Below are positions 31,772-64,000 of a stretch of DNA of 64,000 nt, piece after piece. The stretch's first letter is position 1. Each line of letters starts with the position of its first letter. Origin of the DNA: Archivesica marissinica (Eukaryota > Mollusca > Bivalvia > Venerida > Vesicomyidae); the NCBI GenBank assembly GCA_014843695.1, contig JABXNX010000068.1, positions 100,557 through 164,556 of the forward strand. Direction: 5' to 3'. Below the pieces are notes generated by a model. The model had not been told where the DNA came from. It did not search any database and saw only the letters and a list, made by a program, of their open reading frames with translations. The translations under genes and the position numbers were made by a program.

Positions 31772-31893
31772 TGTTGTAAACGAGGTTAGGTTTAGAGATT
31801 AGTCTTAGAGGTTTTATACATTTATTACTCGACTAAACTTGGAGTATACCTGTAACAAAAGAAAACAAAATAAACATTAGTGATTTCACCACA
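31772..31893 (-). repeat. 3' LTR, 122 bp
   Basis: TGTTGTAAACGAGGTTAGGT through GTGATTTCACCACA on the plus strand. It differs from the 5' LTR at four positions. In element orientation it has AATAAA near its middle. Confidence 0.95.
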
Positions 31894-31905
31894 TTCTCCC
31901 CCTCT
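31894..31905 (-). other. Polypurine tract
   Basis: In element orientation AGAGGGGGAGAA lies immediately before the 3' LTR, as expected for the plus-strand DNA primer. This fixes the LTR boundary and the orientation. Confidence 0.9.
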
Positions 31906-32052
31906 ATCGAAACTGTTAGTCAACAAATTGTTCTCCTTGAACATCACACAAATATTAATAAGCACATAAGTTGTTCTGCTTGAACATAACACATATTAAT
32001 CAACATATTGTTCACAATACAACATTTCTTCTGAAATACAACCAGTAATAGA

Positions 32053-34656
32053 TCAGTCACTGAAACCTAAACGATTAGGCCGTATGGATTGTCTGGCTGA
32101 TCGTCTAACCCAATGTTCTGAAACACCGGATTCTTGTGAATCATCTGAATCTGATTCTGGAGTTGCAATATCACCCACATTGGAAAGATCATTCGTATCT
32201 GTTGGTGCATTGTGATTAACTTGGTTTGTAGTAGAAGTGTCATTTACACCACAAGGAGCTAGATCTCTCTGGGATACGGTTGATTCGCGGCCGTCTGGAA
32301 GTCGAACATGTGCATAGGTGGGATTTGCCTCCAATAACTCTACTCTATCAACAAGCGGATCATACTTTCTGGTTCTCACATGTCTTTTGAACAGTACAGT
32401 ACCCGGTACCATAAGCCATGTGGGTATTGATTGACCAGTAGACGAACTGCGCTGGAATCCTAAGAATCGTTCATGAGGTGTGCAGTTAGTAGCAGTGCAT
32501 AGTAGGCTGCGAATAGAATGAAGGGCATCTTGCAAAACAGATTCCCACAGAGTGTCTTTCATTCCCTTAGTTTGCAGTGCCAAAGTGACTGCCTTCCATA
32601 TAATTCCATTATAACGTTCGCATTGTCCATTACATTGAGGGTTATATGGAGTTGTTCTACAGGTGCAACGCTATGTGCCTGCAAAAATGACTTCACCTCT
32701 GCACTCATGAATGAAGATCCACGATCTGAATGTATGTAAGAAGGCATTCCAAATAATGAAAACAATTGAGTGAGGCACTTTATCACAGTTTCTGATGTCG
32801 TATCAGAGCAGGGGAAGGCAAACAGAAATCTCGAAAATTCATCTACCACAGTCAACAGGTAACGGTTTCTTGATGATGAAGGTAAAGGTCCCTTAAAATC
32901 AATACTAAGTCTCTCAAATGGCTGTGTAGCTTTGATGAGTGAAGAAGTTGATTGGTAAAAATATTTGGGCTTAACCGTAGCACATACAGGACATTGCTTG
33001 ACAATACGCTTCACATCTTCAACTGAATATGGAAGATTCTTTGACCTGACAAAATGCATGAGACGAGTCACACCAGGGTGACACAATGAGTTGTGCAGCT
33101 CCTGTAGCATATCACATGTTGCTGATGAGTAGATTGTTCGGGACAAACAGTCAGCAGTGGCATTATCTTTCCCAGGTCTATATATAATATCATAGCTGTA
33201 GCAACTTAACTCAGAACGCCAGCGAGTTATTTTATCATTCTTGATTTTTCCCCTGTTTTTTATATCGAACATGAAGAACACAGCTTCCTGATCTGTGACT
33301 AGGGTAAAGCGACTTCCAGTCAGCAGATGCCTCCATTTCCCAACAGATTCTATTACAGCGCAAGCCTCCTTTTCGACTGGAGAATGACTCAGCTCATGTG
33401 AATGTAGCGTGTGTGAAAAGAAAGCTACAGGACGTCCACCTTGATTCAGACTTCCGGCAATAGCTACATCTGAAGCATCCGTTTCCACGACGAATGTTTG
33501 AGATTCATCAACTACTTTAACGCTTGAATTTTCCACTTCCTCTTTAAGTGGATTAAATGCAGCTACTGCGTCTTTGTCCAAAGGAAAGTTAGTTACACTG
33601 ACTAGTGGACGTATCTTATCGGAGAATCATGGTATCCATTGACTGTAATAGGAAAACAAACCCATCACTCTCTTGAACGACTTTACGTTTTGAGGCAACA
33701 GCAGATCTCGTAGTAGTTTCATTCGCTCTGGATCCGGCTTCAGATAGCCGTGGCTGATTGAGTATCCCAGAAGGTTTATGGTTCGAACAGAATATGTACA
33801 TTTGTCCTCATTGAATGTTAAATAATATCGTGTTGAATCGTCCATGAATATTCTCAGATTTTCATCATGCTCTTCTTGATCCATCCCTCCATCGTGAAAA
33901 ACTCCCTTTAGATTGTTGTCCAGAACAATTTTGTCAATAACTCTCTGGAAACATGAAACTCCATTAGTTACTCCGAACGGAACTCTACGGAACTGGTATA
34001 GACTGCCATTTGCTTCAAATGCTGTATACTGCTTCTCATCTTCTTGCAACGGTATTTGGTGGTAAGCACTTTTGAGGTCTAGAGTATTGAACACGCAGTT
34101 CATCGATCTTTGGAAATGGATAAGCATCTAGTTCTGTGAATTTATTGATTGTCTGCGAATAATCGATTACAAGACGCTTTTGTGTCGTTCGTTGGTGGTC
34201 ACAAGTACTTGAGCCCGCCAAGCAGAAGTACAGGGCTCAATTATTCCTTCACTGAGTAAGCGCCTTGTTTCATTCTCTATGAACTTCTTATCATCTGCGC
34301 TGTATCGACGAGATTTAGTTGCAATCGGGTGACAGTCATTAGCAAAAAGTCGAGGTGGTTCAATGTTAGCAGAAGCCAAGCTACAAACAGTGTTCCTGAT
34401 ATCGATGGGTTGGCCTGTACCTCCAAAACTGAGTACAACTTTTATGTCGATCCATAAAATCATGACCGAGAATGATGTCACAGCATAGAGTATCTAGCAC
34501 AGACAAGCGAACATTCTTGTATTCTTGATTATCATAGTTCAATGATGCATCACAAATACCATATATTGGACTGGTTAGCGAACTTGAGGCCATTGAGACA
34601 AGCCCTGATGCTGGTATGATGGTCAGATTCAACAATTTAGCCAATTTCATGTCCAT
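32053..34656 (-). pseudogene. Broken pol: protease end, RT, RNase H, integrase
   Basis: Fragments in order (falling coordinates): protease end with ILGHDF near 34440; RT with CTSAWRA, KRLVIDYSQ, then LDLKSAYHQIPL and VPFGVTNG (33627-34127); RNase H with ETDASD and ADCLSR; integrase with a zinc-binding H..H..CPVC motif, LSIDFKGPLP and HSDRGSS; and a C-terminal tail ending at 32053. Frame changes fall near 34650, 34440, 34190, 34100 and 32640, the last separating the third acidic residue of the integrase DDE triad from the first two. A TGA interrupts the RT end at 33627-33629. Where YxDD is expected (after GVF, near 33900) the frame is open but about six residues are missing. The copy cannot make a working polymerase. 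Confidence 0.9.
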
Positions 34657-35623
34657 GAAACTTTTGAGAACTTCCAGTGTCAGCCAATGCTTTACACTTC
34701 CTGTTGTTTATTGATACGTCAATAACTGCTTTAGCCAAACATTGTGGAGCAGCAGCTGTCACTACTGCGAGTACAGGTGTACATGATGCGGAGGTTCCTT
34801 TTGAATTTACAGTTGGAGAACGGCAAACCTTGGCAAAATGTCCCTGTTTTTGACAGTTCGAACAAGTCGCTTCCCTTGCTGGACAGAATCTACGCTGGTG
34901 GAAACCATTTCCGCCACAAAAGAAACATCTCTGTTGATTTGTGTTCGAGCGCCAGGGGTTGTTGTTTCGGCGAGTTAATGCAGCGACAGTTGTGTAAGAC
35001 GTATGTGTATTAAGGTCGGCATTGTCGGGTTGAGATTGTTTATTATCCACAGGAACACTAGCTGCTGCATTGACAGAAGAGACAGGCTTAGTGTATAATT
35101 CATTGCTTTTCTCAGCAGATTCCATAGTCCTAGCTTGATCGAACATTGTCTGTAGATCTAATGTTTTGTTTTCAAGCAGTCGCTGACGAATAATGTGGGA
35201 AGATAGCCCATTGATGAAAGCATCGCGAATACTTTCTTCTCTATGAACTTCAGCTGTCACCGACTTAAAGTTACACTCCTTTCCTAGTTGGCGTAATTCC
35301 TGCAGATATTGATCAAGTGTTTCACCCAGCTGTTGTCGACGAGTTGCGAGTAAATGACGAGCGAGAATTTCATTTTTCGGTCGAACATATGTGGCTTCAA
35401 GGACATCTATTGCTTCATCGAATGTTCTGCACTCCGCAATGTATTCAAATACCGAAGCTGATACGAAGTTAATAAGAGTCTTTAGCTCATCAGGAGTTAT
35501 ATCGCCGCCACTGAACGAGTCTAAGAAATTGGTAAACGTCCTTTTCCAATGTAACCATTCTTTAGCTGCAGTCGGACTGTTTGGATTTGTGTCAAATTTA
35601 TTTGGCTTGAGAAACCGATCCAT
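34637..35623 (-). pseudogene. Gag with zinc knuckles and protease start (328 codons, frame then lost)
   Basis: The ATG at 35623 begins MDRFLKPNKF, only 37 bases inside the 5' LTR. A capsid-like helical region (residues about 20-170) is followed by two zinc knuckles at residues 233-247 (spacing CX2CX5HX4C, one residue longer than usual) and 254-267 (CX2CX4HX4C), then the protease active site ALADTGSS at residues 312-319. So gag and pro share one frame. The frame is lost just after the active site at a run of A, and the reading ends at 34637. Confidence 0.88.
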
Positions 35624-35643
35624 AGCTGATGAGTCTATAGAAT

Positions 35644-35660
35644 AGTATAGTCGAGTAAAC
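35644..35660 (-). other. Primer-binding-site position, complementary to the LTR
   Basis: The bases directly inside the 5' LTR read GTTTACTCGACTATACT in element orientation. They do not begin with TGG, so an ordinary tRNA 3' end does not fit. AGTATAGTCGAGTAA (plus strand, 35644-35658) is complementary to LTR sequence at 35714-35728 (13 of 15 plus one wobble) and at 31825-31839 (14 of 15), suggesting self-priming. Confidence 0.5.
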
Positions 35661-35782
35661 TGTTGTAAACGAGGTTAGGTTTAGAGATTAGTCCTTGAGG
35701 TTTTATACATTTATTACTTGACTACACTTGGAGTATACCTGTAACAAAAGAAAACAAAATAAACATTAGTGATTTCACCACA
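35661..35782 (-). repeat. 5' LTR, 122 bp
   Basis: Direct copy of 31772-31893. In element orientation it has an AT-rich TTTATTTT near nt 20-27, the self-complementary motif at nt 55-69 and AATAAA at nt 68-73. That order would suit a transcript start near nt 54. Confidence 0.95.
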
Positions 35783-36989
35783 GTCTATGACTGAACATGG
35801 TCTATGACTGAACATGGTCTATGATGGAACATGGTCTATGATGGAACATGGTCTATGACGGAACATGGTCTATGACGGAACATGGTCTATGATGGAACAT
35901 GGTCTATGATGGAACATGGTCTATGACTGAACATGGTCTATGATGGAACATGGTCTATGATGGAACATGGTCTATGACGGAACATGGTCTATGATGGAAC
36001 ATGGTATATGATGGAACATGGTCTATGATGGAACATGGTCTATGATGGAACATGGTCTATGATGGAACATGGTCTATGACTGAACATGGTCTATGACTGA
36101 ACATGGTCTATGATGGAACATGGTCTATGACTGAACATGGTCTATGATGGAACATGGTCTATGATGGAACATGGTCTATGACTGAACATGGTCTATGATG
36201 GAACATGGTCTATGATGGAACATGGTCTATGATGGAACATGGTCTATGACGGAACATGGTCTATGACGGAACATGGTCTATGACTGAACATGGTCTATGA
36301 CGGAACATGGTCTATGATGGAACATGGTCTATGATGGAACATGGTCTATGACTGAACATGGTCTATGACTGAACATGGTCTATGATGGAACATGGTCTAT
36401 GATGGAACATGGTCTATGACGGAACATGGTCTATGATGGAACATGGTATATGATGGAACATGGTCTATGACGGAACATGGTCTATGATGGAACATGGTCT
36501 ATGACGGAACATGGTCTATGATGGAACATGGTCTATGACGGAACATGGTCTATGACGGAACATGGTCTATGATGGAACATGGTCTATGACGGAACATGGT
36601 CTATGATGGAACATGGTCTATGATGGAACATGGTCTATGATGGAACATGGTCTATGATGGAACATGGTCTATGACGGAACATGGTCTATGATGGAACATG
36701 GTCTATGATGGAACATGGTCTATGATGGAACATGGTCTATGACGGAACATGGTCTATGATGGAACATGGTCTATGATGGAACATGGTCTATGACGGAACA
36801 TGGTCTATGACGGAACATGGTCTATGATGGAACATGGTCTATGACGGAACATGGTCTATGATGGAACATGGTCTATGATGGAACATGGTCTATGACGGAA
36901 CATGGTCTATGATGGAACATGGTCTATGATGGAACATGGTCTATGACGGAACATGGTCTATGATGGAACATGGTCTATGACGGAACATG
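35783..36989. repeat. 17-bp minisatellite, right part
   Basis: Continuation of the array cut by the retrotransposon. Here GATGGAA and GACGGAA units dominate and TCTGTGA variants are absent, unlike the left part. Confidence 0.95.
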
Positions 36990-44599: not shown

Positions 44600-45573
44600 T
44601 TGTGGTAGCGACATATGTCTGGCAGTGGTGTTAGCGACATTTGTCTGGCAGTGGTGTTAGCGACATTTGTCTGGTAGTGGTGCTAGCGACATTTGTCTGG
44701 TAGTGGTGTTAGCGACATATGTCTGGTAGTGGTGTTAGCGACATATGTCTGGCAGTGGTGTTAGCGACATTTGTCTGGTAGTGGTGTTAGCGACATATAT
44801 CTGGTATTGGTGTTAGCGACATTTGTCTGGTAGTGGTGTTAGCGACATTTGTCTGGCAGTGGTGTTAGCGACATTTGTCTGGTAGTGGTGTTAGCGACAT
44901 TTGTCTGGTAGTGGTGTTAGCGACATTTGTCTGGTAGTGGTGCTAGCGACATTTGTCTGGTAGTGGTGTTAGCGACATATGTCTGGCAGTGGTGTTAGCG
45001 ACATTTGTCTGGTAGTGGTGTTAGCGACATTTGTCTGGTAGTTGTGTTAGCGACATTTGTCTGGTAGTGGTGTTAGCGACATTTGTCTGGTAGTTGTGCT
45101 AGCGACATTTGTCTGGTAGTGGTGTTAGCGACATTTGTCTGGTAGTGGTGTTAGCGACATTTGTATGGTAGTGATGTTAGCGACATTTTTCTGATAGTGG
45201 TGTTAACGACATTTGTCTGGTAGTGGTATTAGCGACATTTGTCTGGTAGTGATGTTAGCGACATTTGTCTGGTAGTTGTGTTAGCGACATTTGTCTGGTA
45301 GTGGTATTAGCGACATTTGTCTGGTAGTGATGTTAGCGAAATTTGTCTGGTAGTTGTGCTAGCGACATTTGTCTGGTAGTGGTGCTAGCGACATTTGTCT
45401 GGTAGTGGTGTTAGCTACATTTGTCTGGTAGTGGTGTTAGCGACATTTGTCTGGTAGTTGTGTTAGCGACATTTGTCTGGTAGTGGTGTCCACCAGACAA
45501 ATGCCGTTATAACACCACTACCAGACAAATGTCGCTAACACCACTACCAGACAAATGTCGCTAACACCACTAT
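44600..45573. repeat. 26-bp minisatellite ending in an inverted turn-around
   Basis: Forward units of GTTAGCGACATTTGTCTGGT plus AGTGGT run to 45488. The turn-around TGGTG-TC-CACCA follows, then three units in inverted orientation to 45573. It lies in the NOL11-CEP20 intergenic region. Confidence 0.95.
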
Positions 45574-46999: not shown

Positions 47000-47027
47000 A
47001 TGTCTTCGACCCATGAACTAAAAGATG
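47000..47027 (+). CDS. CEP20: CEP20 exon 1 (28 bp coding), start of the gene
   Basis: CEP20 (FOPNL/FOR20) is a small LisH protein of centrosomes and centriolar satellites needed for ciliogenesis. The ATG at 47000 gives MSSTHELKD plus one base before donor GTAATT. Joined to exon 2 this reads HELKD-VIKDTLENRGVLG, closely matching vertebrate AELKA-VLKDTLEKKGVLG, with the same phase-1 intron. Recognition rests on this join: the exon is too short to call alone. Intron 1 is 9,024 bp and contains nested transposons and two minisatellites. Confidence 0.88.
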
Positions 47028-47779
47028 GTAATTTAATATTCTGATGTGTAATGTGAAACATATATCATCTAGCAAACAAAAGTTTGAAAACGTACATGTT
47101 AATGATATGTTCTGATTAGGTGAATTCGATTACGCATCAAAACATGTCTGTTAAACTGATAATGTTATTGTTCAGTAAAGTATCCGTGTGTTTTCAATTA
47201 TTTCAATACTCTTCGTATCGCGCATTTAAATTGGACTAGAAGTAAAATGATGACATTCATTGTTTATGTACGATATTCCCACAATGCATCATGTATGTAG
47301 AGTGGTGGAACCTATGCTCAGCTTAAATCCCACATATAATGGCCAGTAATGGCAGTATAAAATGTTAATAGCACTTGCTGTATATAATTATTTTCTTAAG
47401 TCGTGAAAACAACTTTCAAACCACTCTTGCTGACAGTTTTAGCTTCATCACGTGACCTTGCTACTCAATACAACTATCGCAATGGTGTCGGTAGGCACCT
47501 GTTTATATGGGGAACTGAAGACTTCAGGGCACCTATGCACGGCATACTTGTTATTTTTTTTATTTATCCACCATAACTTGTTGAATATCTTTATTTTGAT
47601 ATAGTACATCATTGAATAAAAACATTTATTGGTCTTAATCAGAAATGGTATAGAAACTATTTTTCGGCTTAGGTGTATATTTTTTAAATTCGGATAGCTA
47701 CCTGAATTGCTCATACAATCAGTTTCAGTGGAAATATTCTCCCAATGATTTGCTTGTTTATATTCGTCTGCTAGACCAG

Positions 47780-49267
47780 CAGGGCTGTACAAATCCTATC
47801 GCCCGACGCCCGGGACAAGTCGAAAATTACGGCGGACAAGTGGCTAATTTCAAAACGTTAGTCCCGGACAAGTGCCTTTTTCAAAAATCATAATCATCTT
47901 TTTTGACAGAAAATCTTAAAAAACCCAGAAAATCTATATAAAAAACCCCAGCTCTATTTACTTTTACCAAAAAACGGATGAATTACCATGGTAGAAATCT
48001 AATGAAACATCGTATTTATATACGCGTGTTGTGAGATCACGTGATCACACATATGCCGATTGCGAATGTAAACAATGCGATGAACTGTGACAACACTCGC
48101 TAATTTAAAGATTAAGAGTGGACATACATAATAAATAGATGAATGAGGCCTGATTGGGTTGATTTGTTATGATGGACGTGTGCTACAAACGTGGGCAATT
48201 AATGTTACAGACTGCAAACACTGATTGATATTCGCCGATACATGCGTCCATTCTGTCTTTTTTGCCGAGGTGCAGAAAACGTCACTATTTTTAAAGAGGT
48301 AAGTTGTGTTTTTTAATTTCATGATATAATTAGAGCAATTCAAGTTCAAGATTAGCCAACCGATATGATTTACTCAATTTTATATAGAAATATACTGTAA
48401 ATAATTATCGGACTCTGCACATTTCGTCCATATTAATTATTCTATTAAACTGCGCTGCCGTGTTAAGATCAATATGAGTTTACTTAAATTCTTTAGTTCT
48501 AAACGGAAAAGTGAAGGTGAAAGTGGGGAGGCTAAAAAGAACAGACTGAGTATTGAGTGAGTACACTCACTGATGATTCCATTTTGAATTCATAATTATG
48601 TAGTGATATGCATGTATATTTGCAGGTTCCAGACCTTCAACGAGAAACCACTGAAGTCCTTCCAGGCCCTGGACTACAGTACAGGTCCGTCCCAAGTGAG
48701 CGACATCAGCTGGCCAGCCACGGAAAAGAAGATCTACAGGACATCCTGAACCATATGATGGCTGTGTTCCCTGAGGCTAGTCACAGCCAGATTCAGACGG
48801 AGTATGTGCAGTTGAAGGTGCTTATGAGGCAACAGCAGCAGAGCAGTGAGGTGTACGCCAAACTATTAAGGACCAGCCCGAGTGCCATTAAGTGAACTGA
48901 AGAGAACTGGGCCTTCTCTGCAAGACTTTGATGCTGAGAAGGCCACCAGGCACTGGCTTGCCTGTGGCAAAGGTGGTCGTCATGTCCACGGGTATATGTG
49001 TTAAGAAACGTGTGTGACCGGTGTTGTAAATAATTATTATTAGTTTGTGTGTAATAATGATTCTTTATTTATTTAGATAATTTATGTAAATAAGAGTAAA
49101 AACTGAATTAAATCATCTTAATCATGATCTTGTCTCTGTCTCAATTAGCCTATACGTAAAGATACATATGATATCACATTTTTAATTGCTGTTTTGGCAA
49201 AATATTATTGGACAAGTGGCATCCTGGTCCTAGACAAGTGGCCTTGAAAAATATTTGTACAACCCTG
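47780..49267 (+). mobile_element. hAT-like DNA transposon, 1,488 bp
   Basis: Terminal inverted repeats CAGGGCTGTACAAAT (47780-47794) and ATTTGTACAACCCTG (49253-49267) have one mismatch and the CAGGG start typical of hAT. Subterminal GGACAAGTGGC motifs occur at both ends. GACCAG occurs beside both ends, but a clean 8-bp target duplication is not visible. There is no complete transposase; a short two-exon frame lies inside. Confidence 0.7.
48474..48749 (+). CDS. Two-exon 68-residue ORF inside the hAT element, unknown function
   Basis: ATG at 48474 reads MSLLKFFSSKRKSEGESGEA and runs to 48556, where GTGAGT begins a 69-base intron ending TTTGCAG at 48625. The phase is kept (phase 2), and the second exon reads FQTFNEKPLKSFQALDYSTG and stops at 48747-48749. 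Beyond the stop, plausible coding continues in the other two frames: DLQDILNHMMAVFPEA near 48740-48893, then LQDFDAEKATRHWLACGKGG to about 49002. This looks like a frameshifted longer gene rather than a designed 68-residue protein. An MSLLKFF-type start is common in hAT proteins, but I cannot name the family. It could also be a host gene fragment captured by the transposon. Confidence 0.5.
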
Positions 49268-49487
49268 ACCAGTCATGTGACATCTGACCATGCTTCAGCT
49301 CTGTCAGCGAAATTATACTATATAAATATTTTAAATACGGATGAAAATACGCCGAGCATAGGAATACGCCGAGCATAGGTTCCACCACTCTATGTATGTT
49401 CCATTAATGTCAAACCCCTTACGGGGACCTAGACATGTTTTCCTGGTCAGGCTTAACCTACCATAGTGGTTAACCAGTACTAAGAAG

Positions 49488-49590
49488 CAATGTGTGTGAG
49501 GTGCCTTGCTCAATGACACTACATACGTGACCTGACCGAGTATTGAACCCGGGACCGCTTGATTCCAAATCCGACGCTGGACCACGGACG
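49488..49590 (-). mobile_element. SINE, third family (C)
   Basis: The reverse complement has A box TGGTCCAGCGTCGGA and B box GGGTTCAATACTC, then TGTCATTGAGCAAGGCACC, a central motif also partly present at 38237-38260. It differs from families A and B. Confidence 0.6.
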
Positions 49591-49867
49591 TCACACATCA
49601 TGCACATGCCTGAGGTAGTTTTCCAATATGCGTTGTAAAATAAGTGAATAATCCTTCTTTTCATAACTGGTATAAAAAAGAATAGGTTTTGGCCAAATAT
49701 TTTTTTTGGCCTGTGAAATTCCCCCCCCCCCCATGTAATTTAATGTAATTTTTTCACTTGCACAGTTTATGGAATACCTTTATGAAAAACATCATTTCAG
49801 TGTGATTTTAGGAATAGATTAAAAAAATAGCATTATACACATATTTTCTACAAATGGGCATTTTAGT

Positions 49868-50095
49868 TTATACAAATTTATTTTAGCTTGATTGCGAAAC
49901 AAGTTCTTATAACTTATACTAATCACTCTCGAGACCTCATTACTGATGGAATCCATCGCCACGAGGGAGAGAGAAGAGGCATGTGGAATTTAAATGCCTT
50001 GCCTAAGGACACAATCGTAACGGCTCCAGCGGGGCTCGAACTCCAGGCCTTTCGCACGTGAAGCGAACGCGCTACCACTGAGGTATCACGACTTC
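49868..50095 (-). mobile_element. SINE family B, most complete copy
   Basis: Minus-strand copy with full tRNA-like head: A-box region GTGATACCTCAGTGGTAGCG and B box GAGTTCGAGCCCC in the reverse complement. Then the body GGCAAGGCATTTAAATTCCA and the conserved end GAACTTGTTTCGCAATC(A/G)AGC. Confidence 0.88.
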
Positions 50096-50964
50096 CACAA
50101 TGGGCACTTTACCGTGCAGCAGGCCTTTTGCTATTACTGTTCATCAGTTGCATAGCAAAGGACTGCATTTTTAAACACAGTGTACGAAGATGAGAATGTT
50201 TTCTAACAGAGTTCGTGAGTTTTATCTCAGCTGCTTCAGAAAGTCACATGATTATCACCTGACATTGATATTTCAGTATTGTACAGGGTGTCTCAAAAAA
50301 GGTCATACCTTATATATTTTTACTAATATTAAGAGAACTTGTCTGGAATATAAATATCCTCATTACCTTCTTTGGACATGTATGGGTTATTATTGTTACT
50401 AGTACAGACCAGACCAACGCCATGTGTCCCTTAGTACAGGATGTACTCATCTACTGCCATGCCAAATGTCTACCAGGCAGTTAGAGAGCTTAGTGAAAAT
50501 GCTTGTCTATGTTCAGACGCAATGATGAATTCATATGCCCCTACCATGGTTCTACACCGATATATAAACTGTCAAATTTGAATACAGTTCCAGAATGACC
50601 CCATAGTTATTTTATCATGTTATAGTTTTTTATTAACATGTGTTAGGTTACATTTGGACAGTACCTATATACAGGTCATACAAGGATACTCTTCATTTTA
50701 GAGGGTATCGATAATAGGTCAATATTTTAAATGGTGGCTGGCTGCTACCTATTGTGTTTAGTTGACTACAATTTGTTGTTTTGATAGTCATTATTTTATA
50801 TAATGATATGGATAAATGGAAATGATATAATTTAAAGGTAATGCATGTTTTGGATTACCTTCCATTACTTTTAATAGCAGAGCAACAGTGCTTATGGTAT
50901 CGAAAGCCGGTCAGTCAATGATACATGTCAAAACCACAGGCACAAGACACACATTTTTTTTTTC
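50096..50964. other. Intron 1 of CEP20, no gene recognised
   Basis: Non-coding, AT-rich. ACAGGGTGTCTCAAAAAAGG at 50282 resembles one mariner end, but no partner end is seen. Confidence 0.45.
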
Positions 50965-51784
50965 TATGGCAGTGCTCAAAAAATAGGACTGCCCGGGGCC
51001 CCTCAAAATCCAAGTCGCGCCTGTCTCTCTTTAAGGTGTCTAAAAAAATCTCGGGGCCCGGAGAAATTTTTTAATGTCTCTCGATTTCCGGTCTCGGAGA
51101 CGACACTCGTAAACATTCTCGGGCCTGATGACTAAATCAATCAATTATACCTCTTTTGTCCTCTGTTTACACAACATTAGCTACTGCAACACCTAAATAA
51201 TAGCCCCCAATAAACAATGACTTCACTAATTTCTCAATCATGCTGAGAAACCCCGATACATTAGCATACAACTCGCTGATTGGCTGTATCAGGGATATAC
51301 CTTCATTAATAGCATAAATAAATTGCGTGGTCTTTGTCTGTACAATGGATGAAAGATGGATTCATTAGCAGATTAGCGACGAGATATGATAGGATATATT
51401 AGCATAATTGAGAATTGAGTAGATGGAAACTTCTACAGATGTGAAATGGACAAATGTTGAAATTTCTCATGGGTCGTCCAAAATGAAAGTGAAAGTAGAA
51501 AATGTAAACACAATATTGAACAACTTGACAGTAAAAAAACATTTCAAAATGGAAAATAGTTTTTCAGCCGTTGTGGAAAGAAACTTTCTACTGGCTATGG
51601 TTTGATGAAATAACACACAAGATGTTTTGTATGGTTCGGGTGGCAGTAAACTAGAGCTGAAAAGAATACTCTTCTGCAATTGAAGATCAAATTTAACCTT
51701 CAGTTGAAGATCAAATTTCAGCCTAAGTATAATGTCAAGATTACTGCCAATTGTCCCAAGATTACTGCCTCTATCGTTAAGGTT
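50965..51784 (+). mobile_element. About 820-bp dispersed repeat, copy 2, inverted relative to copy 1
   Basis: Matches 40574-41407 in inverted orientation throughout, including ATTGGCTGTATCAGGGATAT and CTAATTTCTCAATCATGCTG. The frame from 51423 keeps VEISHGSSKMKVKVENVNTI but has a different, shorter C-terminal end. Confidence 0.75.
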
Positions 51785-52127
51785 GCAGGGATCAGTTTAG
51801 AGGGCGATGTGGGCGAAATTGTCGCCCTAGGGACCCTGACTTCGCCCTCTGGGATGTGAGAGTGCGCAATCGCGTCCTTAAATGGTGTTATTTAATATAC
51901 TAATGCAAAATAGGGTTAAAATGCACAGTACAACCATTAAACACAACATTTGAATAGAAGGAGTGCTTTATAATGGGCCAGTGTATCTTTACTAGACCAA
52001 ATTTTGTTTGAAAATCGTAAAAACCAAAAAATATTTTTTTTTAGGAAGAAGTGGGGCCCCCAGAGGGCGAAGTCAGGGTCCCTAGGGCGACAATTTCGCC
52101 CACATCGCCCTCTATAATGATCCCTGC
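51785..52127. mobile_element. 343-bp non-autonomous DNA transposon with 69-bp TIRs
   Basis: Terminal inverted repeats of 69 bp with two mismatches: GCAGGGATCAGTTTAGAGGG at 51785 and its complement ending at 52127. The interior of about 205 bp (GTCCTTAAATGGTGTTATTT) also occurs at 26765-27022. A 61-codon and an 87-codon frame cross it but have no family match. Confidence 0.85.
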
Positions 52128-52400
52128 TACTTCGTTAAATGCAATCATGCTGCCTGCAGCCTCAGCGTGCAGAGCAATACAGAAAACAAGTCCAAAACAA
52201 AAAGTAAAATCCAATAATGATTCCATTATGGATAAGATCTGCGGCGAATATACATCGCTATTTCATTGGCTGCTGTTTTCATATGGATTTACATGTTTCA
52301 TTTTTGACCAATGAGGCATTGTAATGGGTTTTTGACTGTAAAATTTGATAATAAAGGTTTCTTGTTGGTGTTGGGTTGTGGTGATCCACAGCAACTAGTC

Positions 52401-55327
52401 CATTTTAGTTTATAATAACGATACATTTTAGTTTATAATAACGATACATTTTAGTTTATGATAGATATATTTTAGTTTATAATAACGATACATTTTAGTT
52501 TATAATAACGATACAGTTTAGTTTATAATAACGATGCATTTTAGGTTATAACATTTTAGTTTATAATAACGATACATTTTAGTTTATAATAACGATACAT
52601 TTTAGTTTATAATAGATATATTTTAGTTTATAATAACGATACATTTTAGTTTATAATAACGATACATTTTAGTTTATAATAACGATACATTTTAGTTTAT
52701 AATAACGATACAGTTTAGTTTATAATAACGATGCATTTTAGGTTATAACATTTTAGTTTATAATAACGATACATTTTAGTTTATAATAACGATACATTTT
52801 AGTTTATAATAGATATATTTTAGTTTATAATAACGATACATTTTAGTTTATAATAACGATACATTTTAGTTTATGATAACGATGCATTTTAGTTTATAAT
52901 AACGATACTTTAGTTTATAATAACGATACATTTTAGTTTATAATAACGATACATTTTAGTTTATAATAGATACATTTTAGTTTATAATAACGATACATTT
53001 TAGTTTATAATAACGATACAGTTTAGTTTATAATAACGATGCATTTTAGGTTATAACATTTTAGTTTATAATAACGATACATTTTAGTTTATAATAACGA
53101 TACATTTTAGTTTATAATAGATACATTTTAGTTTATAATAGATACATTTTAGTTAGTTTATAATAGATACATTTTAGTTTATAATAACAATACATTTTAG
53201 TTTATAATAACGATACATTTTAGTTTATAATAGATACATTTTAGTTTATGATAACGATGCATTTTAGTTTATAATAGATACATTTTAGTTTATAATAACG
53301 ATGCATTTTAGTTTATAATAGATACATTTTAGTTTATAATAGATACATTTTAGTTTAAAATAACGATGCATTTTAGTTTATAATAGATACATTTTAGTTT
53401 ATAATAGATACATTTTAGTTTATAATAGATACATTTTAGTTTATAATAACGATACATTTTAGTTTATAATAACGATACATTTTAGTTTATAATAGATACA
53501 TTTTAGTTTATAATAACGATGCATTTTAGTTTATAATAGATACATTTTAGTTTATAATAGATACATTTTAGTTTATAATAACGATACATTTTAGTTTATA
53601 ATAGATACATTTTAGTTTATAATAGATACATTTTAGTTTATAATAACAATACATTTTAGTTTATAATAGATACATTTTAGTTTATAATAGATACATTTTA
53701 GTTTATAATAACGATACATTTTAGTTTATAATAGATACATTTTAGTTTATGATAACGATGCATTTTAGTTTATAATAGATACATTTTAGTTTATAATAAC
53801 GATGCATTTTAGTTTATAATAGATACATTTTAGTTTATAATAGATACATTTTAGTTTAAAATAACGATGCATTTTAGTTTATAATAGATACATTTTAGTT
53901 TATAATAGATACATTTTAGTTTATAATAGATACATTTTAGTTTATAATAGATACATTTTAGTTTATAATAGATACATTTTAGTTTATAATAATGATACAT
54001 TTTAGTTTATAATAGATACGTTTTAGTTTATAATAGATACATTTTAGTTTATAATAGATACATTTTAGTTTATAATAGATACATTTTAGTTTATAATAGA
54101 TACATTTTAGTTTATAATAGATACATATTAGTTTATAATAACGATGCATTTTAGTTTATAATAACGATACATTTTATTTTATAATAGATACATTTTAGTT
54201 TATAATAGATACATTTTAGTTTATAATAGATACATTTTAGTTTATAATAGATACATTTTAGTTTATAATAACGATACATTTTAGTTTATAATAGATACAT
54301 TTTAGTTTATATTAGTTTATAATAGATACATTTTAGTTTATAATAGATACATTTTAATTTATAATAACGATGCATTTTAGTTTATAATAACGATACATTT
54401 TAGTTTATAATAGATACATTTTAGTTTATAATAGATACATTTTAGTTTATAATAATGATACATTTTAGTTTATAATAGATACATTTTAGTTTATAATAGA
54501 TACATTTTAGTTTATAATAACAATACATTTTAGTTTATAATAGATACATTTTAGTTTATAATAACGATACATTTTAGTTTATAATAATGATACATTTTAG
54601 TTTATAATAACGATACATTTTAGTTTATAATAACGATGCATTTTAGTTTATAATAACGATACATTTTAGTTTATAATAACGATGCATTTTAGTTTATAAT
54701 AGATACATTTTAGTTTATAATAGATACATTTTAGTTTATAATAGATACATTTTAGTTTATAATAGATACATTTTAGTTTATAATAGATACATTTTAGTTT
54801 ATAATAGATACATTTTAGTTTATAGTAACGATGCATTTTAGTTTATAATAGATACATTTTAGTTTATAATAGATACATTTTAGTTTATAATAACGATACA
54901 TTTTAGTTTATAATAACGATACATTTTAGTTTATAATAACGATACATTTTAGTTTATAATAGATACATTTTAGTTTATAATAACGATACAGTTTAGTTTA
55001 TAATAACGATGCATTTTAGGTTATAACATTTTAGTTTATAATAACGATACACTTTAGTTTATAATAACGATACATTTTAGTTTATAATAACGATACATTT
55101 TAGTTTATAATAACGATACATTTTAGTTTATAATAGATACATTTTAGTTTATAATAACGATACATTTTAGTTTATAATAACGATACATTTTAGTTTATAA
55201 TAACGATACATTTTAGTTTATAATAACGATACATTTTAGTTTATAATAACGATACATTTTAGTTTCTAATAACGATACATTTTAGTTTCTAATAACGATA
55301 CATTTTAGTTTATAATAACGATACATT
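52401..55327. repeat. AT-rich 21/23-bp minisatellite, about 2.9 kb
   Basis: Alternating units ACATTTTAGTTTATAATAACGAT (23 bp) and ACATTTTAGTTTATAATAGAT (21 bp), about 130 copies. A rarer GCATTTTAGGTTATAACATT junction recurs at 52535, 52733, 53040 and 55010, marking higher-order duplication. CEP20 intron 1. Confidence 0.95.
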
Positions 55328-55360
55328 GTTTGTACAACGGAAGCTTAGAAGTTATGGCCC

Positions 55361-55924
55361 TTTGTTTCCTCCATTCATTGATGCATGTCTAATTAACTCC
55401 TACAGTTTTCCGTTACTTTGTTTCCTCCATTCATTGATGCATGTCTAATTAACTCCTACAGTTTTACTTTGTTTCCTCCATTCATTGATGCTTGTCTAAT
55501 TAACTCCTACAGTTTTACTTTGTTTCCTCCATTCATTGATGCTTGTCTAATTAACTCCTACAGTTTTACTTTGTTTCCTCCATTCATTGATGCTTGTCTA
55601 ATTAACTCCTACAGTTTTACTTTGTTTCCTCCATTCATTGATGCTTGTCTAATTAACTCCTACAGTTTTACTTTGTTTCCTCCATTCATTGATGCTTGTC
55701 TAATTAACTCCTACAGTTTTACTTTGTTTCCTCCATTCATTGATGCTTGTCTAATTAACTCCTACAGTTTTACTTTGTTTCCTCCATTCATTGATGCTTG
55801 TCTAATTAACTCCTACAGTTTTACTTTGTTTCCTCCATTCATTGATGCTTGTCTAATTAACTCCTACAGTTTTACTTTGTTTCCTCCATTCATTGATGCT
55901 TGTCTAATTAACTCCTACAGTTTT
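55361..55924. repeat. 51-bp minisatellite, 11 copies, with 3'-splice-site-like motif
   Basis: Units start TTTGTTTCCTCCATTCATTG and end CTAATTAACTCCTACAG(TTTTAC). The unit end resembles a branch point, pyrimidine stretch and CAG acceptor. A 202-codon plus-strand frame with a 17-residue period is a by-product of the 51-bp length. It lies 128 bases before the true acceptor of CEP20 exon 2. Confidence 0.95.
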
Positions 55925-56051
55925 CCTTACTCATCATTATATAGTGATAATGACTCATCTGTATTATTGATTTCAGTATTTATTTTGATATATATATATG
56001 GCATAACTAATTTAACAATTTCTTAACATTTTCATGATTTCACTTTTACAG

Positions 56052-56249
56052 TTATTAAAGACACATTGGAAAACCGAGGTGTGCTAGGCGAGATTAAAGC
56101 TCGGATAAGAGCTGAAGTGTTCAACTCACTGGACGACCATACTGATGCAAAACCACCACTAAGCAATGAGAATATGATAATAAATGAACTGTTCCGAGAA
56201 TATCTACAATTCAACAAATATAAATACACAGCCTCTGTCATGATTGCAG
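56052..56249 (+). CDS. CEP20: CEP20 exon 2 (198 bp), LisH region
   Basis: Acceptor CACTTTTACAG precedes 56052 and donor GTACAC starts at 56250; the exon is phase 1 at both ends. It encodes IKDTLENRGVLGEIKARIRA, then EVFNSLDD..., NELFREYLQFNKYKYTASVM and IA. This is the TOF/LisH dimerisation core of CEP20 and is very close to the vertebrate protein (KARIRAEVFNALDD, YLEFNKYKYTASVLIA). The donor AG-GTACAC lacks the G at +5 and so is weak. The last 24 bases of the exon and the donor form part of the 55-bp unit that then repeats through intron 2. Confidence 0.95.
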
Positions 56250-59200
56250 GTACACAAATATTATTAACCCCTCATATAATACACAGCCTCTGTCATGATT
56301 GCAGGTACACAACTATTATTAACCCCTCATATAATACACGGCCTCTGTCATGATTGCAGGTACACAAATATTATTAACCCCTCATATAATACATGGCCTC
56401 TGTCATGATTGCAGGTACACAAATATTATTAACCCCTCATATAATACACGGCCTCTGTCATGATTGCAGGTACACAAATATTATTAACCCCTCATATAAT
56501 ACATGGCCTCTGTCATGATTGCAGGTACACACATATTATTAACCCCTCATATAATACATGGCCTCTGTCATGATTGCAGGTACACACATATTATTAACCC
56601 CTCATATAATACATGGCCTCTGTCATGATTGCAGGTACACAAATATTATTAACCCCTCATATAATACACGGCCTCTGTCATGATTGCAGGTACACAAATA
56701 TTATTAACCCCTCATATAATACACGGCCTCTGTCATGATTGCAGGTACACAAATATTATTAACCCCTCATATAATACATGGCCTCTGTCATGATTGCAGG
56801 TACACAAATATTATTAACCCCTCATATAATACATGGCCTCTGTCATGATTGCAGGTACACAAATATTATTAACCCCTCATATAATACATGGCCTCTGTCA
56901 TGATTGCAGGTACACAAATATTATTAACCCCTCATATAATACACGGCCTCTGTCATGATTGCAGGTACACAAATATTATTAACCCCTCATATAATACACG
57001 GCCTCTGTCATGATTGCAGGTACACAAATATTATTAACCCCTCATATAATACACGGCCTCTGTCATGATTGCAGGTACACAAATATTATTAACCCCTCAT
57101 AATACATGGCCTCTGTCATGATTGCAGGTACACAAATATTATTAACCCCTCATATAATACACGGCCTCTGTCATGATTGCAGGTACACAAATATTATTAA
57201 CCCCTCATATAATACACGGCCTCTGTCATGATTGCAGGTACACAAATATTATTAACCCCTCATATAATACACGGCCTCTGTCATGATTGCAGGTACACAA
57301 ATATTATTAACCCCTCATATAATACATGGCCTCTGTCATGATTGCAGGTACACAAATATTATTAACCCCTCATATAATACACGGCCTCTGTCATGATTGC
57401 AGGTACACAAATATTATTAACCCCTCATATAATACATGGCCTCTGTCATGATTGCAGGTACACAAATATTATTAACCCCTCATATAATACACGGCCTCTG
57501 TCATGATTGCAGGTACACAAATATTATTAACCCCTCATATAATACACGGCCTCTGTCATGATTGCAGGTACACAAATATTATTAACCCCTCATATAATAC
57601 ACGGCCTCTGTCATGATTGCAGGTACACAAATATTATTAACCCCTCATATAATACACGGCCTCTGTCATGATTGCAGGTACACAAATATTATTAACCCCT
57701 CATATAATACATGGCCTCTGTCATGATTGCAGGTACACAAATATTATTAACCCCTCATATAATACACGGCCTCTGTCATGATTGCAGGTACACAAATATT
57801 ATTAACCCCTCATATAATACACGGCCTCTGTCATGATTGCAGGTACACAAATATTATTAACCCCTCATATAATACACGGCCTCTGTCATGATTGCAGGTA
57901 CACAAATATTATTAACCCCTCATATAATACATGGCCTCTGTCATGATTGCAGGTACACAAATATTATTAACCCCTCATATAATACATGGCCTCTGTCATG
58001 ATTGCAGGTACACAAATATTATTAACCCCTCATATAATACACGGCCTCTGTCATGATTGCAGGTACACAAATATTATTAACCCCTCATATAATACATGGC
58101 CTCTGTCATGATTGCAGGTACACAAATATTATTAACCCCTCATATAATACACGGCCTCTGTCATGATTGCAGGTACACAAATATTATTAACCCCTCATAT
58201 AATACATGGCCTCTGTCATGATTGCAGGTACACAAATATTATTAACCCCTCATATAATACACGGCCTCTGTCATGATTGCAGGTACACAAATATTATTAA
58301 CCCCTCATATAATACACGGCCTCTGTCATGATTGCAGGTACACAAATATTATTAACCCCTCATATAATACACGGCCTCTGTCATGATTGCAGGTACACAA
58401 ATATTATTAACCCCTCATATAATACACGGCCTCTGTCATGATTGCAGGTACACAAATATTATTAACCCCTCATATAATACATGGCCTCTGTCATGATTGC
58501 AGGTACACAAATATTATTAACCCCTCATATAATACACGGCCTCTGTCATGATTGCAGGTACACAAATATTATTAACCCTCATATAATACACGGCCTCTGT
58601 CATGATTGCAGGTACACAAATATTATTAACCCCTCATATAATACACGGCCTCTGTCATGATTGCAGGTACACAAATATTATTAACCCCTCATAATACATG
58701 GCCTCTGTCATGATTGCAGGTACACAAATATTATTAACCCCTCATATAATACACGGCCTCTGTCATGATTGCAGGTACACAAATATTATTAACCCCTCAT
58801 ATAATACACGGCCTCTGTCATGATTGCAGGTACACAAATATTATTAACCCCTCATATAATACATGGCCTCTGTCATGATTGCAGGTACACAAATATTATT
58901 AACCCCTCATATAATACACGGCCTCTGTCATGATTGCAGGTACACAAATATTATTAACCCCTCATATAATACACGGCCTCTGTCATGATTGCAGGTACAC
59001 AAATATTATTAACCCCTCATATAATACACGGCCTCTGTCATGATTGCAGGTACACAAATATTATTAACCCCTCATATAATACACGGCCTCTGTCATGATT
59101 GCAGGTACACAAATATTATTAACCCCTCATATAATACATGGCCTCTGTCATGATTGCAGGTACACAAATATTATTAACCCCTCATATAATACACGGCCTC

Positions 59201-60883
59201 TGTCATGATTGCAGGTACACAAATATTATTAACCCCTCATATAATACACGGCCTCTGTCATGATTGCAGGTACACAAATATTATTAACCCCTCATATAAT
59301 ACACGGCCTCTGTCATGATTGCAGGTACACAAATATTATTAACCCCTCATATAATACATGGCCTCTGTCATGATTGCAGGTACACAAATATTATTAACCC
59401 CTCATATAATACACGGCCTCTGTCATGATTGCAGGTACACAAATATTATTAACCCCTCATATAATACACGGCCTCTGTCATGATTGCAGGTACACAAATA
59501 TTATTAACCCCTCATATAATACACGGCCTCTGTCATGATTGCAGGTACACAAATATTATTAACCCCTCATATAATACATGGCCTCTGTCATGATTGCAGG
59601 TACACAAATATTATTAACCCCTCATATAATACATGGCCTCTGTCATGATTGCAGGTACACAAATATTATTAACCCCTCATATAATACATGGCCTCTGTCA
59701 TGATTGCAGGTACACAAATATTATTAACCCCTCATATAATACACGGCCTCTGTCATGATTGCAGGTACACAAATATTATTAACCCCTCATATAATACACG
59801 GCCTCTGTCATGATTGCAGGTACACAAATATTATTAACCCCTCATATAATACACGGCCTCTGTCATGATTGCAGGTACACAAATATTATTAACCCCTCAT
59901 ATAATACATGGCCTCTGTCATGATTGCAGGTACACAAATATTATTAACCCCTCATATAATACATGGCCTCTGTCATGATTGCAGGTACACAAATATTATT
60001 AACCCCTCATATAATACACGGCCTCTGTCATGATTGCAGGTACACAAATATTATTAACCCCTCATATAATACACGGCCTCTGTCATGATTGCAGGTACAC
60101 AAATATTATTAACCCCTCATATAATACACGGCCTCTGTCATGATTGCAGGTACACAAATATTATTAACCCCTCATATAATACACGGCCTCTGTCATGATT
60201 GCAGGTACACAAATATTATTAACCCCTCATAATACATGGCCTCTGTCATGATTGCAGGTACACAAATATTATTAACCCCTCATATAATACACGGCCTCTG
60301 TCATGATTGCAGGTACACAAATATTATTAACCCCTCATATAATACACGGCCTCTGTCATGATTGCAGGTACACAAATATTATTAACCCCTCATATAATAC
60401 ACGGCCTCTGTCATGATTGCAGGTACACAAATATTATTAACCCCTCATATAATACACGGCCTCTGTCATGATTGCAGGTACACAAATATTATTAACCCCT
60501 CATATAATACATGGCCTCTGTCATGATTGCAGGTACACAAATATTATTAACCCCTCATATAATACACGGCCTCTGTCATGATTGCAGGTACACAAATATT
60601 ATTAACCCCTCATATAATACACGGCCTCTGTCATGATTGCAGGTACATAAATATTATTAACCCCTCATATAATACACGGCCTCTGTCATGATTGCAGGTA
60701 CACAAATATTATTAACCCCTCATATAATACACGGCCTCTGTCATGATTGCATGTACATAAATATTATTAACCCCTCATAATATATGGCCTCTGTCATGAT
60801 TGCAGGTACACAAATATTATTAACCCCTCATATAATACACGGCCTCTGTCATGATTGCAGGTACACAAATATTATTAATACAT
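56226..60883 (+). repeat. 55-bp minisatellite made of the CEP20 exon 2/intron 2 boundary, about 84 extra copies
   Basis: Each 55-bp unit contains the exon 2 end GCCTCTGTCATGATTGCAG, the donor GTACAC, and the intron start AAATATTATTAACCCCTCAT. From the true donor (56250) to the last copy (60861) is 4,611 bases, equal to 84 units minus four 2-base deletions and one 1-base deletion. So 85 donor positions exist, of which one (near 60753) has lost the AG before GT. The first unit after the exon keeps the exon's ACACAGCC; later ones read ACACGGCC or ACATGGCC. Confidence 0.97.
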
Positions 60884-60935
60884 GGCCTCCTGAAAGTTTG
60901 TTTGTTTGTTTTGGTCGATTAAAGTTGAACCAACG

Positions 60936-61095
60936 GTGACTCTCCAGCTATTTTTGGTGGAGGAAGACCCTGTGTGCCCTCCAAATTGCAGGCAAAGAAC
61001 CACATGAAATAATTTGATACCCTCGGAGGGATTCGAACCTACAGCGGGGAGAAACAGGTGAAGTCAACAACCGTAACAACTTAGCCACGGAGTAT
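60936..61095 (-). mobile_element. SINE family A carrying one 37-bp-array-like unit
   Basis: The minus strand begins with an A-box-like TGGCTAAGTTGTTACGG and has B box GGTTCGAATCCC. Its body end (60940-60983) reads ACTCTCCAGCTATTTTTGGT then GGAGGAAGACCCTG, one copy of the unit that makes up 1-23205. In CEP20 intron 2. Confidence 0.82.
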
Positions 61096-61403
61096 ATTTT
61101 GTTTAATCTTCTGACTCATTCAGCTTTATTAACAGATTTAAAATTGTAATGAGCTTGTACTACATTCTCATTAAAATCAAATGAAACTCAGTACATATCA
61201 ATAATATGATGAACATGGAGTCGTCAAGCACAGCGTGTCTGCACTTTCATGTCTGGTCTAGTTCTTGTGTTACTTGAGCTATCCAACACATAGCAGTTCC
61301 AAGGAATTCCCCAACACAATACCACAAGACGGGTGCCTGAATTTTCCTCAGTATAGTTACGTGGATGTACATTCTAGGGTAATACATACAATGTATATTG
61401 TAG

Positions 61404-61488
61404 AATCTGGGCAGCCTAAACAGCCATTGGACAGAGGATTTCTGGCTGAGGAACTGAATGTGGAAGAAGATAAAAATAGCACCCAAGT
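61404..61488 (+). CDS. CEP20: CEP20 exon 3 (85 bp)
   Basis: Acceptor TATTGTAG precedes 61404. The first two bases complete a Glu codon with exon 2, giving [21 protein letters not shown], a direct match to vertebrate CEP20 ESGQPVVPLDRQFLIHEL. I place the end at 61488 because GTGAGT follows; GTGTGA two bases earlier (ending at 61486) is an alternative and would change the phase. The rest of the gene lies beyond the window. Confidence 0.92.
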
Positions 61489-61499
61489 GTGAGTCAAAT

Positions 61500-64000
61500 T
61501 ATCCTCACTATCATCAACCCAAGCCTCCATCCACCATACCTGTCCATCATACCCATCCACCATACCCATCTACCCAAGCCTCCATCCACCATACCCACCC
61601 ACCATACCCATCAACCCAAGCCCCCATCCACCATACCCATCCACCATACCCATGTACCCAAGCCTCCACCCACCATACCCATCTACCCAAGCCTCCATCC
61701 ACCATACCCATCTACCCAAGCCCCATCCACCATACCCATCCACCATACCATTACCCAAGCCTCCATCCACCATACCCATCTACCCAAGCCTCCATCCACC
61801 ATACCCATCTACCATACCCATCCACCCAAGCCCCCATCCACCATACCCATCCACCATACCCATCTACCCAAGCCTCCATCCACCATACCCATCTACTCAA
61901 GCCTCCACCCACCATACCCATCTACCATACTATCAACCCAAGCCCCATCCACCATCCCATCCACCATACCCATCTACCCAAGCCTCCATCCACCATACCC
62001 ATCTACCCATCAACCAAAGCCCCCATCCACCATACCCTCCACCCACCATACCCATCTACCCAAGCCTCCATCCACCATACCCATCTACCCAAGCCTCCAT
62101 CCACCATACCCATCTACCCAAGCCTCCACCCACCATACCCATCTACTCAAGCCTCCACCCACCATACCCATCTACTCAAGCCTCCACCCACCATACCCAT
62201 CTACCCAAGCCTCCATCCACCATACCCATCTACCCAAGCCTCCATCCACCATACCCATCTACCCAAGCCTCCACCACCATACCCATCTACCCAAGCCTCC
62301 ATCTACTCAAGCCTCCACCCACCATACCCATCTACTCAAGCCTCCATCCACCATACCCATCTACCCAAGCCTCCATCCACCATACCCATCTACCCAAGTC
62401 TCCATCCACCATACCCATCTACCCAAGCCTCCATCCACCATACCCATCTACTCAAGCCTCCACCCACCATACCCATCTACTCAAGCCTCCATCCACCATA
62501 CCCATCTACCCAAGCCTCCATCCACCATACCCATCTACCCAAGTCCCCATCCACCATACCCATCTACCCAAGCCTCCATCCACCATACCCATCTACCCAA
62601 GCCTCCATCCACATCTACCCAAGCCTCCATCCACCATACCCATCTACCCAAGCCTCCATCCACCATACCCATCTACTCAAGCCTCCATCCACCATACCCA
62701 TCTACCCAAGCCTCCATCCACCATACCCATCTACTCAAGCCTCCATCCACCATACCCATCTACTCAAGCCTCCATCCACCATACCCATCTACTCAAGCCT
62801 CCATCCACCATACCCATCTACTCAAGCCTCCACCCACCATACCCATCTACTCAAGCCTCCATCCACCATACCCATCTACTCAAGCCTCCATCCACCATAC
62901 CCATCTACTCAAGCCTCCATCCACCATACCCATCTACTCAAGCCTCCACCCACCATACCCATCTACTCAAGCCTCCATCCACCATACCCATCTACTCAAG
63001 CCTCCACCCACCATACCCATCTACTCAAGCCTCCATCCACCATACCCATCTACCCAAGCCTCCATCCACCATACCCATCTACCCAAGTCTCCATCCACCA
63101 TACCCATCTACCCAAGCCTCCATCCACCATACCCATCTACTCAAGCCTCCACCCACATCTACCCAAGCCTCCATCCACCATACCCATCTACCCAAGCCTC
63201 CATCCACCATACCCATCTACCAAGTCTCCATCCACCATACCCATCTACCCAAGCCTCCATCCACCATACCCATCTACCCAAGCCTCCACCCACCATACCC
63301 ATCTACTCAAGCCTCCATCCACCATACCCATCTACCCAAGCCTCCATCCACCATACCCATCTACCCAAGCCTCCATCCACCATACCCATCTACCCAAGCC
63401 TCCATCCACCATACCCATCTACCCAAGCCTCCATCTACTCAAGCCTCCACCCACCATACCCATCTACTCAAGCCTCCATCTACTCAAGCCTCCACCCACC
63501 ATACCCATCTACTCAAGCCTCCACCCACCATACCCATCTACTCAAGCCTCCATCCACCATACCCATCTACCCAAGCCTCCATCCACCATACCCATCTACC
63601 CAAGCCTCCATCCACCATACCCATCTACCCAAGCCTCCATCCACCATACCCATCTACCCAAGCCTCCATCCACCATACCCATCTACTCAAGCCTCCACCT
63701 CCACCATACCCATCTACTCAAGCCTCCATCCACCATACCCATCTACTCAAGCCTCCACCCACCATACCCATCTACCAAACCCATCCACCATACCCATCTA
63801 CCCAAGCCTCCATCCACCATACCCATCTACCCAAGCCTCCATCCACCATACCCATCTACCCAAGCCTCCATCCACCATACCCATCTACCCAAGCCTCCAT
63901 CCACCATACCCATCTACTCAAGCCTCCATCCACCATACCCATCTACTCAAGCCTCCATCCACCATACCCATCTACCCAAGCCTCCATCCACCATACCCAT
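61500..64000. repeat. 29-bp minisatellite running off the window
   Basis: The unit is CCATCCACCATACCCATCTA plus CCCAAGCCT, with many CCCACC and CTACTCAAG variants. About 85 copies. It begins about 10 bases after the donor of CEP20 exon 3 and fills the visible part of intron 3. Confidence 0.96.

Follow-up and report, generated by a model that had tools for sequence, protein, structure and literature searches.

A tandem array repeats the exon 2 splice donor of CEP20 in the bivalve Archivesica marissinica

Introduction

The minisatellite of the human gene IFI6 (6-16, G1P3) has units of 12 bp, so alternative donors within it keep the reading frame. A 1995 study by Turri et al. was reportedly, by its title, about a human IFI6 minisatellite providing multiple splice donors. 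Two downstream units of this minisatellite serve as donors (PMC4526556). In this work we describe a minisatellite of 55-bp units that covers the end of exon 2, the 5′ splice site and most of intron 2 of a gene assigned to the centrosome gene CEP20 in the vesicomyid bivalve Archivesica marissinica. The window, that is, the whole stretch of DNA analysed, comprises 64,000 nucleotides of contig JABXNX010000068.1 (assembly GCA_014843695.1, positions 100,557 to 164,556).

Tandem repeats have been linked to splicing in other settings. Fission yeast introns formed of 24-nt tandem repeats carry AGGC (PMC3629103), against AGGT in the potato paper (PMC4974935), and a minisatellite of Caenorhabditis elegans is enriched close to alternatively spliced regions (PMC4039745). 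In recursive splicing, known recursive exons are ∼50 nt long with a downstream donor, the Drosophila Ubx microexons being 51 nt, and the ratchet donor is as a general tendency stronger than the donor of the recursive exon (PMC8605326); recursive events have been described both in introns with a median length of 3.4 kb and at the distal ends of exons (PMC10156609). Among the titles and abstract openings listed in the literature searches, none concerned a donor array of the CEP20 kind beyond the works citing the IFI6 paper, which does not show its absence from print.

Results

Most of intron 2 is occupied by an array that Tandem Repeats Finder (TRF) resolves with a period of 55 bp, 84.9 copies and 98% matches (Table 1). 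Cut at the donor, it yields 85 donor sites and 84 units running from GT to GT, 79 of them 55 bp long, four 53 bp and one 54 bp. Because the array starts at 56218 and exon 2 ends at 56249, the last ∼27–32 coding bases fall inside it: the final 19 are identical to the unit, and the final 27 differ from it once. The core CAG/GTACA (the slash marks the splice position) is common to 84 of the 85 donors and AGGT is intact in the same number, the lone exception reading CAT/GTACA. The units belong to 10 sequence types, two of which account for 73 of the 84, and TTAAC, read by eye, is present in every type. The locus therefore has what marks a minisatellite repeating a splice donor of the IFI6 kind, an array overlapping an exon end with its donor and intact donors in its units (84/85 by AGGT, 84/85 at the U1 score given below). 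Elsewhere in the window the best of the 10 matches listed for the 55-bp unit was 16 bases at E 0.17, and neither RNA families at gathering score nor tRNAs (ARAGORN, bacterial code) were found.

An earlier note on this DNA had described a 55-bp unit running from the last coding bases of exon 2 across the donor GTACAC into the intron, with AG-GT intact in almost every copy and a TTAAC in each, and the TRF interval and the unit census agree with it. Its figure of about 84 copies matches the 84 units and the last donor at 60861, although the donors total 85, the true one plus 84. It had also named the gene as CEP20 and placed the exon 2 boundary where we do, and two results support both: exons 1–3 join into an open N-terminus of 103 amino acids on the + strand, the start of the gene in the window, and this N-terminus matches Mercenaria CEP20 with 89% identity over 100% of the query. 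That match was the best among the 120 listed of 289 obtained at E ≤ 1e-3 from ∼5.8 billion proteins; the best named ones among the matches listed came from bivalves, Mercenaria (89%), Dreissena (88%), Mactra (86%) and Mya (84%). By N-terminal homology the gene is assigned as a putative orthologue of CEP20 (FOPNL/FOR20). Exon 2 taken alone reaches 28.9 bits for FOP_dimer, just below the cut-off of 29.4, and 17 for LisH_2, below the cut-off of 27. Introns 1 and 2 measure 9.0 kb and 5.2 kb from the exon coordinates.

Table 1. Coordinates of the CEP20 exons, donors and neighbouring arrays in the window
Feature	Position	Strand	Details
CEP20 exon 1, coding part	47000–47027	+	donor ATG/GTAATT at 47028
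51-bp array, intron 1	55360–55928	+	TRF, 11.1 copies; 11 acceptor-like ends CTCCTACAG
CEP20 exon 2	56052–56249	+	198 nt
55-bp minisatellite: end of exon 2, 5′ splice site and start of intron 2	56218–60878	+	TRF, unit census
True exon 2 donor CAG/GTACAC, first of 85	56250–56255	+	sole donor keeping the frame open through exon 3
Downstream donor copies, 84	56305–60866 (first 56305, last 60861)	+	spacing, U1 duplex
CEP20 exon 3	61404–61488	+	acceptor TTGTAG; donor AGT/GTGAGT at 61489
29-bp array, start of intron 3	61512–64000	+	TRF; 24 bases past exon 3, continues off the window

The choice of donor has consequences for the message. Only the first of the 85, at 56250, leaves the frame open through exon 3, and each of the 84 others leads to a premature stop: the second after 98 residues, out of frame within exon 3, and the remaining 83 after 109 residues, inside the array. 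The statement in the earlier note that any other donor shifts the frame is correct for 56 of the 84; the other 28 add a multiple of three, but none of these escapes a stop. At the true junction the gene encodes A-E-S-G-Q-P, and none of 13 fetched homologues (two from Mya), compared by eye, has an insert there. Nonsense-mediated decay operates in other animals and, if it works likewise in this one, would clear the errors made at downstream donors. Skipping of exon 2 would preserve the frame (198 nt), an error invisible to decay. No protein of 0.55–1.75 times the query length sharing three 5-residue words with the read-through end was found in the 5.8-billion set, a test of little power, as RNAs that undergo decay yield no protein.

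The acceptor side of exon 2 is also faced with copies. A second array, of 51-bp units and absent from the earlier note, lies upstream of exon 2; its units contain CTAATTAACTCCTACAG, and its acceptor-like ends lie 131–646 bases upstream of the true acceptor. All 11 AGs of this array score 3.1, which is the 95th percentile of 349 background AGs, as compared with 5.4 for the true exon 2 acceptor, on a rough matrix that is a poor guide, given that the true acceptor of exon 3 reaches only −1.3 (74th percentile). Left out of this background were the AGs within the arrays, both true acceptors and an array at 52401–55327. Exon 2 is never open when it begins at an acceptor of the 51-bp array, and among the 1020 versions made by combining 12 acceptors with 85 donors exactly one is open through exon 3.

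Local strength does not single out the correct donor. The U1 duplex score is −7.1 for 84 of the 85 array donors and −0.5 for one; like the acceptor scores, it gives rough ranks, not MaxEnt scores. U1 pairing is stronger at the array donors than at those of exon 1 (−5.1) and exon 3 (−6.0), and only one of the 120 other GTs of intron 2 outscores the array donors, CAGGTGAAG at 61058 (−8.4). Since the donor cores are equal for U1, their strength cannot decide which is used, and the true donor does have to be chosen among near-identical copies, as had been pointed out before. RNA structure was considered as a chooser and rejected: the predicted fold of the unit dimer, at −19.4 kcal/mol, is unexceptional beside repeat-keeping shuffles (n=400; mean −17.2, s.d. 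4.2, z −0.5, p 0.28), and the accessibility of the first donor ranks 28th or 51st of 85, depending on window size.

Errors within the array would have a different fate. Every unit starts with GT and 83 of the 84 end with AG, so internal excisions from GT to AG would be mostly harmless, shortening the array and restoring the same junction. The exact CAG/GTACAC is regenerated by 3406 of the 3570 possible pairs; 82 of the others lack AG and 82 leave an altered junction. The array shows one of the properties of intron gain by tandem duplication, a copied AGGT segment whose excision leaves the coding message unchanged. Such restoration holds for any tandem repeat containing AGGT (Rogers model, PMC4974935) and is therefore not evidence of function.

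Sequence variation among the units is limited. The only frequently variable position sits in the single CpG of the unit (CG in 55, TG in 28 and CA in 1 of 84), a pattern as neutral deamination would give. Apart from this C-to-T change, eight further types of change occur, all of them rarer (1–4 units each) and one of them the single CA at the same CpG. In unit order, rare variants are commonest near both array edges, as in arrays homogenised from the middle, and the whole points to an array that is recent or actively homogenised. The CpG state is autocorrelated along the array at lags 5, 51 and 56 (single-lag p 0.0005 to 0.0035) and 41 (p 0.04), and with a best-lag p of 0.034 and a p of 0.10 for the longest shared run, higher-order duplications within it are suggestive only.

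The locus is rich in repeats as a whole. TRF lists 20 arrays with roughly three copies or more in the window, together covering 41,384 of 64,000 bases (65%), one array alone taking 23,205, and four arrays account for 63% of the CEP20 region that begins at 47000. When the four arrays of the gene were placed at random, at least one edge fell within 32 bp of any of the five splice junctions in 14.5% of 20,000 trials and in 14.1% of 200,000, a limit that was chosen after the first edge had been seen and makes these odds, and those given below for two edges, rough. One array lying across a splice junction in such a gene is not very surprising.

Several other features of the window were recorded. 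The 37-bp unit of the largest satellite (1–23205) matches 45 bases (91%) of a sequence resembling a short interspersed nuclear element (SINE) that follows the 55-bp array (60939–61051), and a second piece of this sequence (51 columns, 86%) lies at 24354–24403, 1.1 kb beyond the end of the satellite; the satellite may have grown out of the SINE-like element. A retroelement on the − strand (31772–35786) has RNase H and integrase domains, a gag match just below cut-off and 126-bp ends that are 96% alike. As closely similar 17-bp minisatellite stretches flank it on both sides (30676–31770 and 35783–36989), it seems to have been inserted into a 17-bp array. A 26-bp array at 44602–45572 flips its orientation near 45490, giving an inverted pair of arms. 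Intron 1 contains an open frame of 99 codons (48596–48895) with weak matches to HTH_70 and Sin3_corepress, both below cut-off, which is possibly a gene or a mobile-element fragment. Read-through of the exon 3 donor (61480–61494) ends the protein at ...NSTQV; a Mya CEP20 record of 104 amino acids terminates at the same place, perhaps as an intron-retaining model.

Discussion

We consider that the array is probably the product of neutral minisatellite expansion, tolerated because exon definition picks the correct donor and stop codons remove the mistakes. A 55-bp stretch across the boundary between exon 2 and intron 2 would have been duplicated in tandem, most likely by accident, and then expanded to 84 further units without a dedicated function. 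The spliceosome would define exon 2 across the exon, pairing its acceptor with the nearest donor (56250, giving the 198-nt exon), and the 84 near-equal donors that follow at 55-nt steps in the intron would be mostly ignored. Transcripts that nevertheless use one of them would contain a premature stop and be eliminated by nonsense-mediated decay, and excisions inside the array would shorten it and leave the junction as it was.

Exon definition is the expected mode at this locus because introns of 9.0 and 5.2 kb flank the exon, by analogy with other animals. Experimental support for its selectivity comes from minigenes: when two identical strong donors competed under exon definition, splicing went exclusively to the upstream one, shorter exons were preferred, and with both donors weakened the upstream preference was kept in smaller constructs and larger exons were mostly skipped (PMC9225289). 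Protection by an exon-definition signal had been the third alternative of the earlier note; these minigenes favour it, and for this animal we infer it by analogy. As to neutrality, two of the nine change types fall in the nine donor positions (of 55), as compared with 1.5 expected by arithmetic, so there is no depletion, and selection on AG/GT was not detected. This result, the CpG pattern and the repeat-rich surroundings (20 arrays, 65% of the window) are taken together as support for neutral expansion.

A number of observations weigh against this explanation. Transcriptome-wide, ∼60% of human alternative-donor events prefer the downstream donor, and the weakened paired donors just mentioned led to exon skipping in the larger constructs (PMC9225289); GTACAC is a non-consensus donor, and 84 competing copies are far beyond the two donors tested in those minigenes. 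The test for selection is weak, as the changes are few and homogenisation could hide selection. Finally, two array edges lie near junctions, at distances of 31 bp (end of exon 2) and 24 bp (end of exon 3); at least two such edges occurred in 0.9% of random placements (P 0.009) and, when only the 11,408 placements overlapping no exon by more than 32 bp are counted, in 2.9% (0.029), a hint that arrays here may start at exon borders more often than chance.

The downstream donors might instead act as decoys, competing for U1 at a set rate, in which case stop-containing transcripts would tune CEP20 output and the copy number would set expression. Every one of the 84 alternative donors does give a stop, and the copies equal the true donor and outpair those of exons 1 and 3 for U1 (−7.1 versus −5.1 and −6.0), as would suit such a rheostat, for which human IFI6, where two downstream repeat units serve as donors (PMC4526556), is a precedent. 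However, change is not depleted at the donor positions, and the 5.8-billion set held no protein matching the read-through end, weak as that test is. On balance we regard a decoy function as unlikely.

A recursive-splicing array, in which every AG/GT would be a ratchet point and the 55-nt units would be recursive exons, each with a donor at the distal end, is quite unlikely, and the resemblance to recursive sites that the earlier note had seen stands for the layout only. AG and GT are juxtaposed intact at 84 of 85 sites, as in ratchet points, and the only AG of the consensus unit is the one before the donor, with TTAAC 37 nt before the unit's end. The next donor is 53–55 nt away for all sites but the last, as in recursive exons, although tandem repetition by itself implies this. 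The strict motif Y5+N0-4YAGGT (PMC10156609), by contrast, fits none of the 85 array sites and occurs once within 47000–61600, with its GT at 47673. The pyrimidine-rich stretches claimed for the unit proved weak as well: in the unit tested, pyrimidines make up 60% of the 20 bases that precede the AG. As an acceptor the site is mediocre, its AG scoring 2.0 (91st percentile of the background) versus 5.4 for the true exon 2 acceptor, the ratchet donor is not stronger than the next one (84 of 85 score −7.1), and donor positions show no depletion of change. A hop of one unit would moreover leave 17 nt from the donor to the branch-like A. This distance is too short, and hops of two or more units would then be needed, nearly all of which would restore CAG/GTACAC (3406 of 3570 pairs) so that paths from donor 1 lead to the same mRNA. 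Recursive splicing is possible but weakly supported.

A related idea, that the array erases itself by ∼3,400 interchangeable internal excisions, with random recursive hops and an mRNA independent of the path taken, seems to us very unlikely. If true, the coding end of exon 2 would evolve in concert with the intronic array, which would amount to a supply of spare donors. That the array is an assembly artefact, the true one being much shorter or longer, is highly improbable: near-identical units are hard to assemble and the exact copy number may be off, but the rare unit variants (10 types) occur throughout the array as well as at both its edges, and the array is bordered by intact coding sequence at one end and by unique intron at the other.

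CEP20 offers a natural test of how one splice site is chosen among many near-identical ones. A single exon faces 84 competing donors, nearly all of which have one nine-letter core in common, together with 11 acceptor-like copies upstream, and the junctions seen in RNA would reflect nothing but position. Near-exclusive use of the correct donor would mean that exon definition is stronger than tests with two donors could reveal; otherwise the length of the array becomes a dial on the output of the gene or gives rise to recursive splicing.

The competing-donor minigenes (PMC9225289; Reed and Maniatis as cited there) resemble this locus in that equal donors are set against each other and position decides, but they contain two donors in a construct, whereas CEP20 has 85 in a natural gene. 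Recursive ratchet points share the juxtaposed AG/GT and a further donor ∼50 nt on; they differ from the CEP20 sites, known from sequence alone, in which the acceptor is weak, the strict motif is missing, the donors are equal and the whole is a tandem array. In intron gain by tandem duplication (ATP2A1/ATP2A2, potato RdRp, Schizosaccharomyces), copies of AGGT likewise provide both GT and AG, and the message is the same after excision (PMC4974935), while the segment copied in CEP20 straddles an exon–intron border and its 84 units lie inside an intron. The closest likeness is with IFI6, where a minisatellite also stands at an exon end and downstream units are alternative donors. The CEP20 units differ in being 55 bp long, in having AG directly before the donor and in that every alternative donor leads to a stop. 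The CEP20 array is an extreme variant of that precedent and not a new kind; what it adds is the many copies, the AG before nearly every donor and the stop that follows every alternative one.

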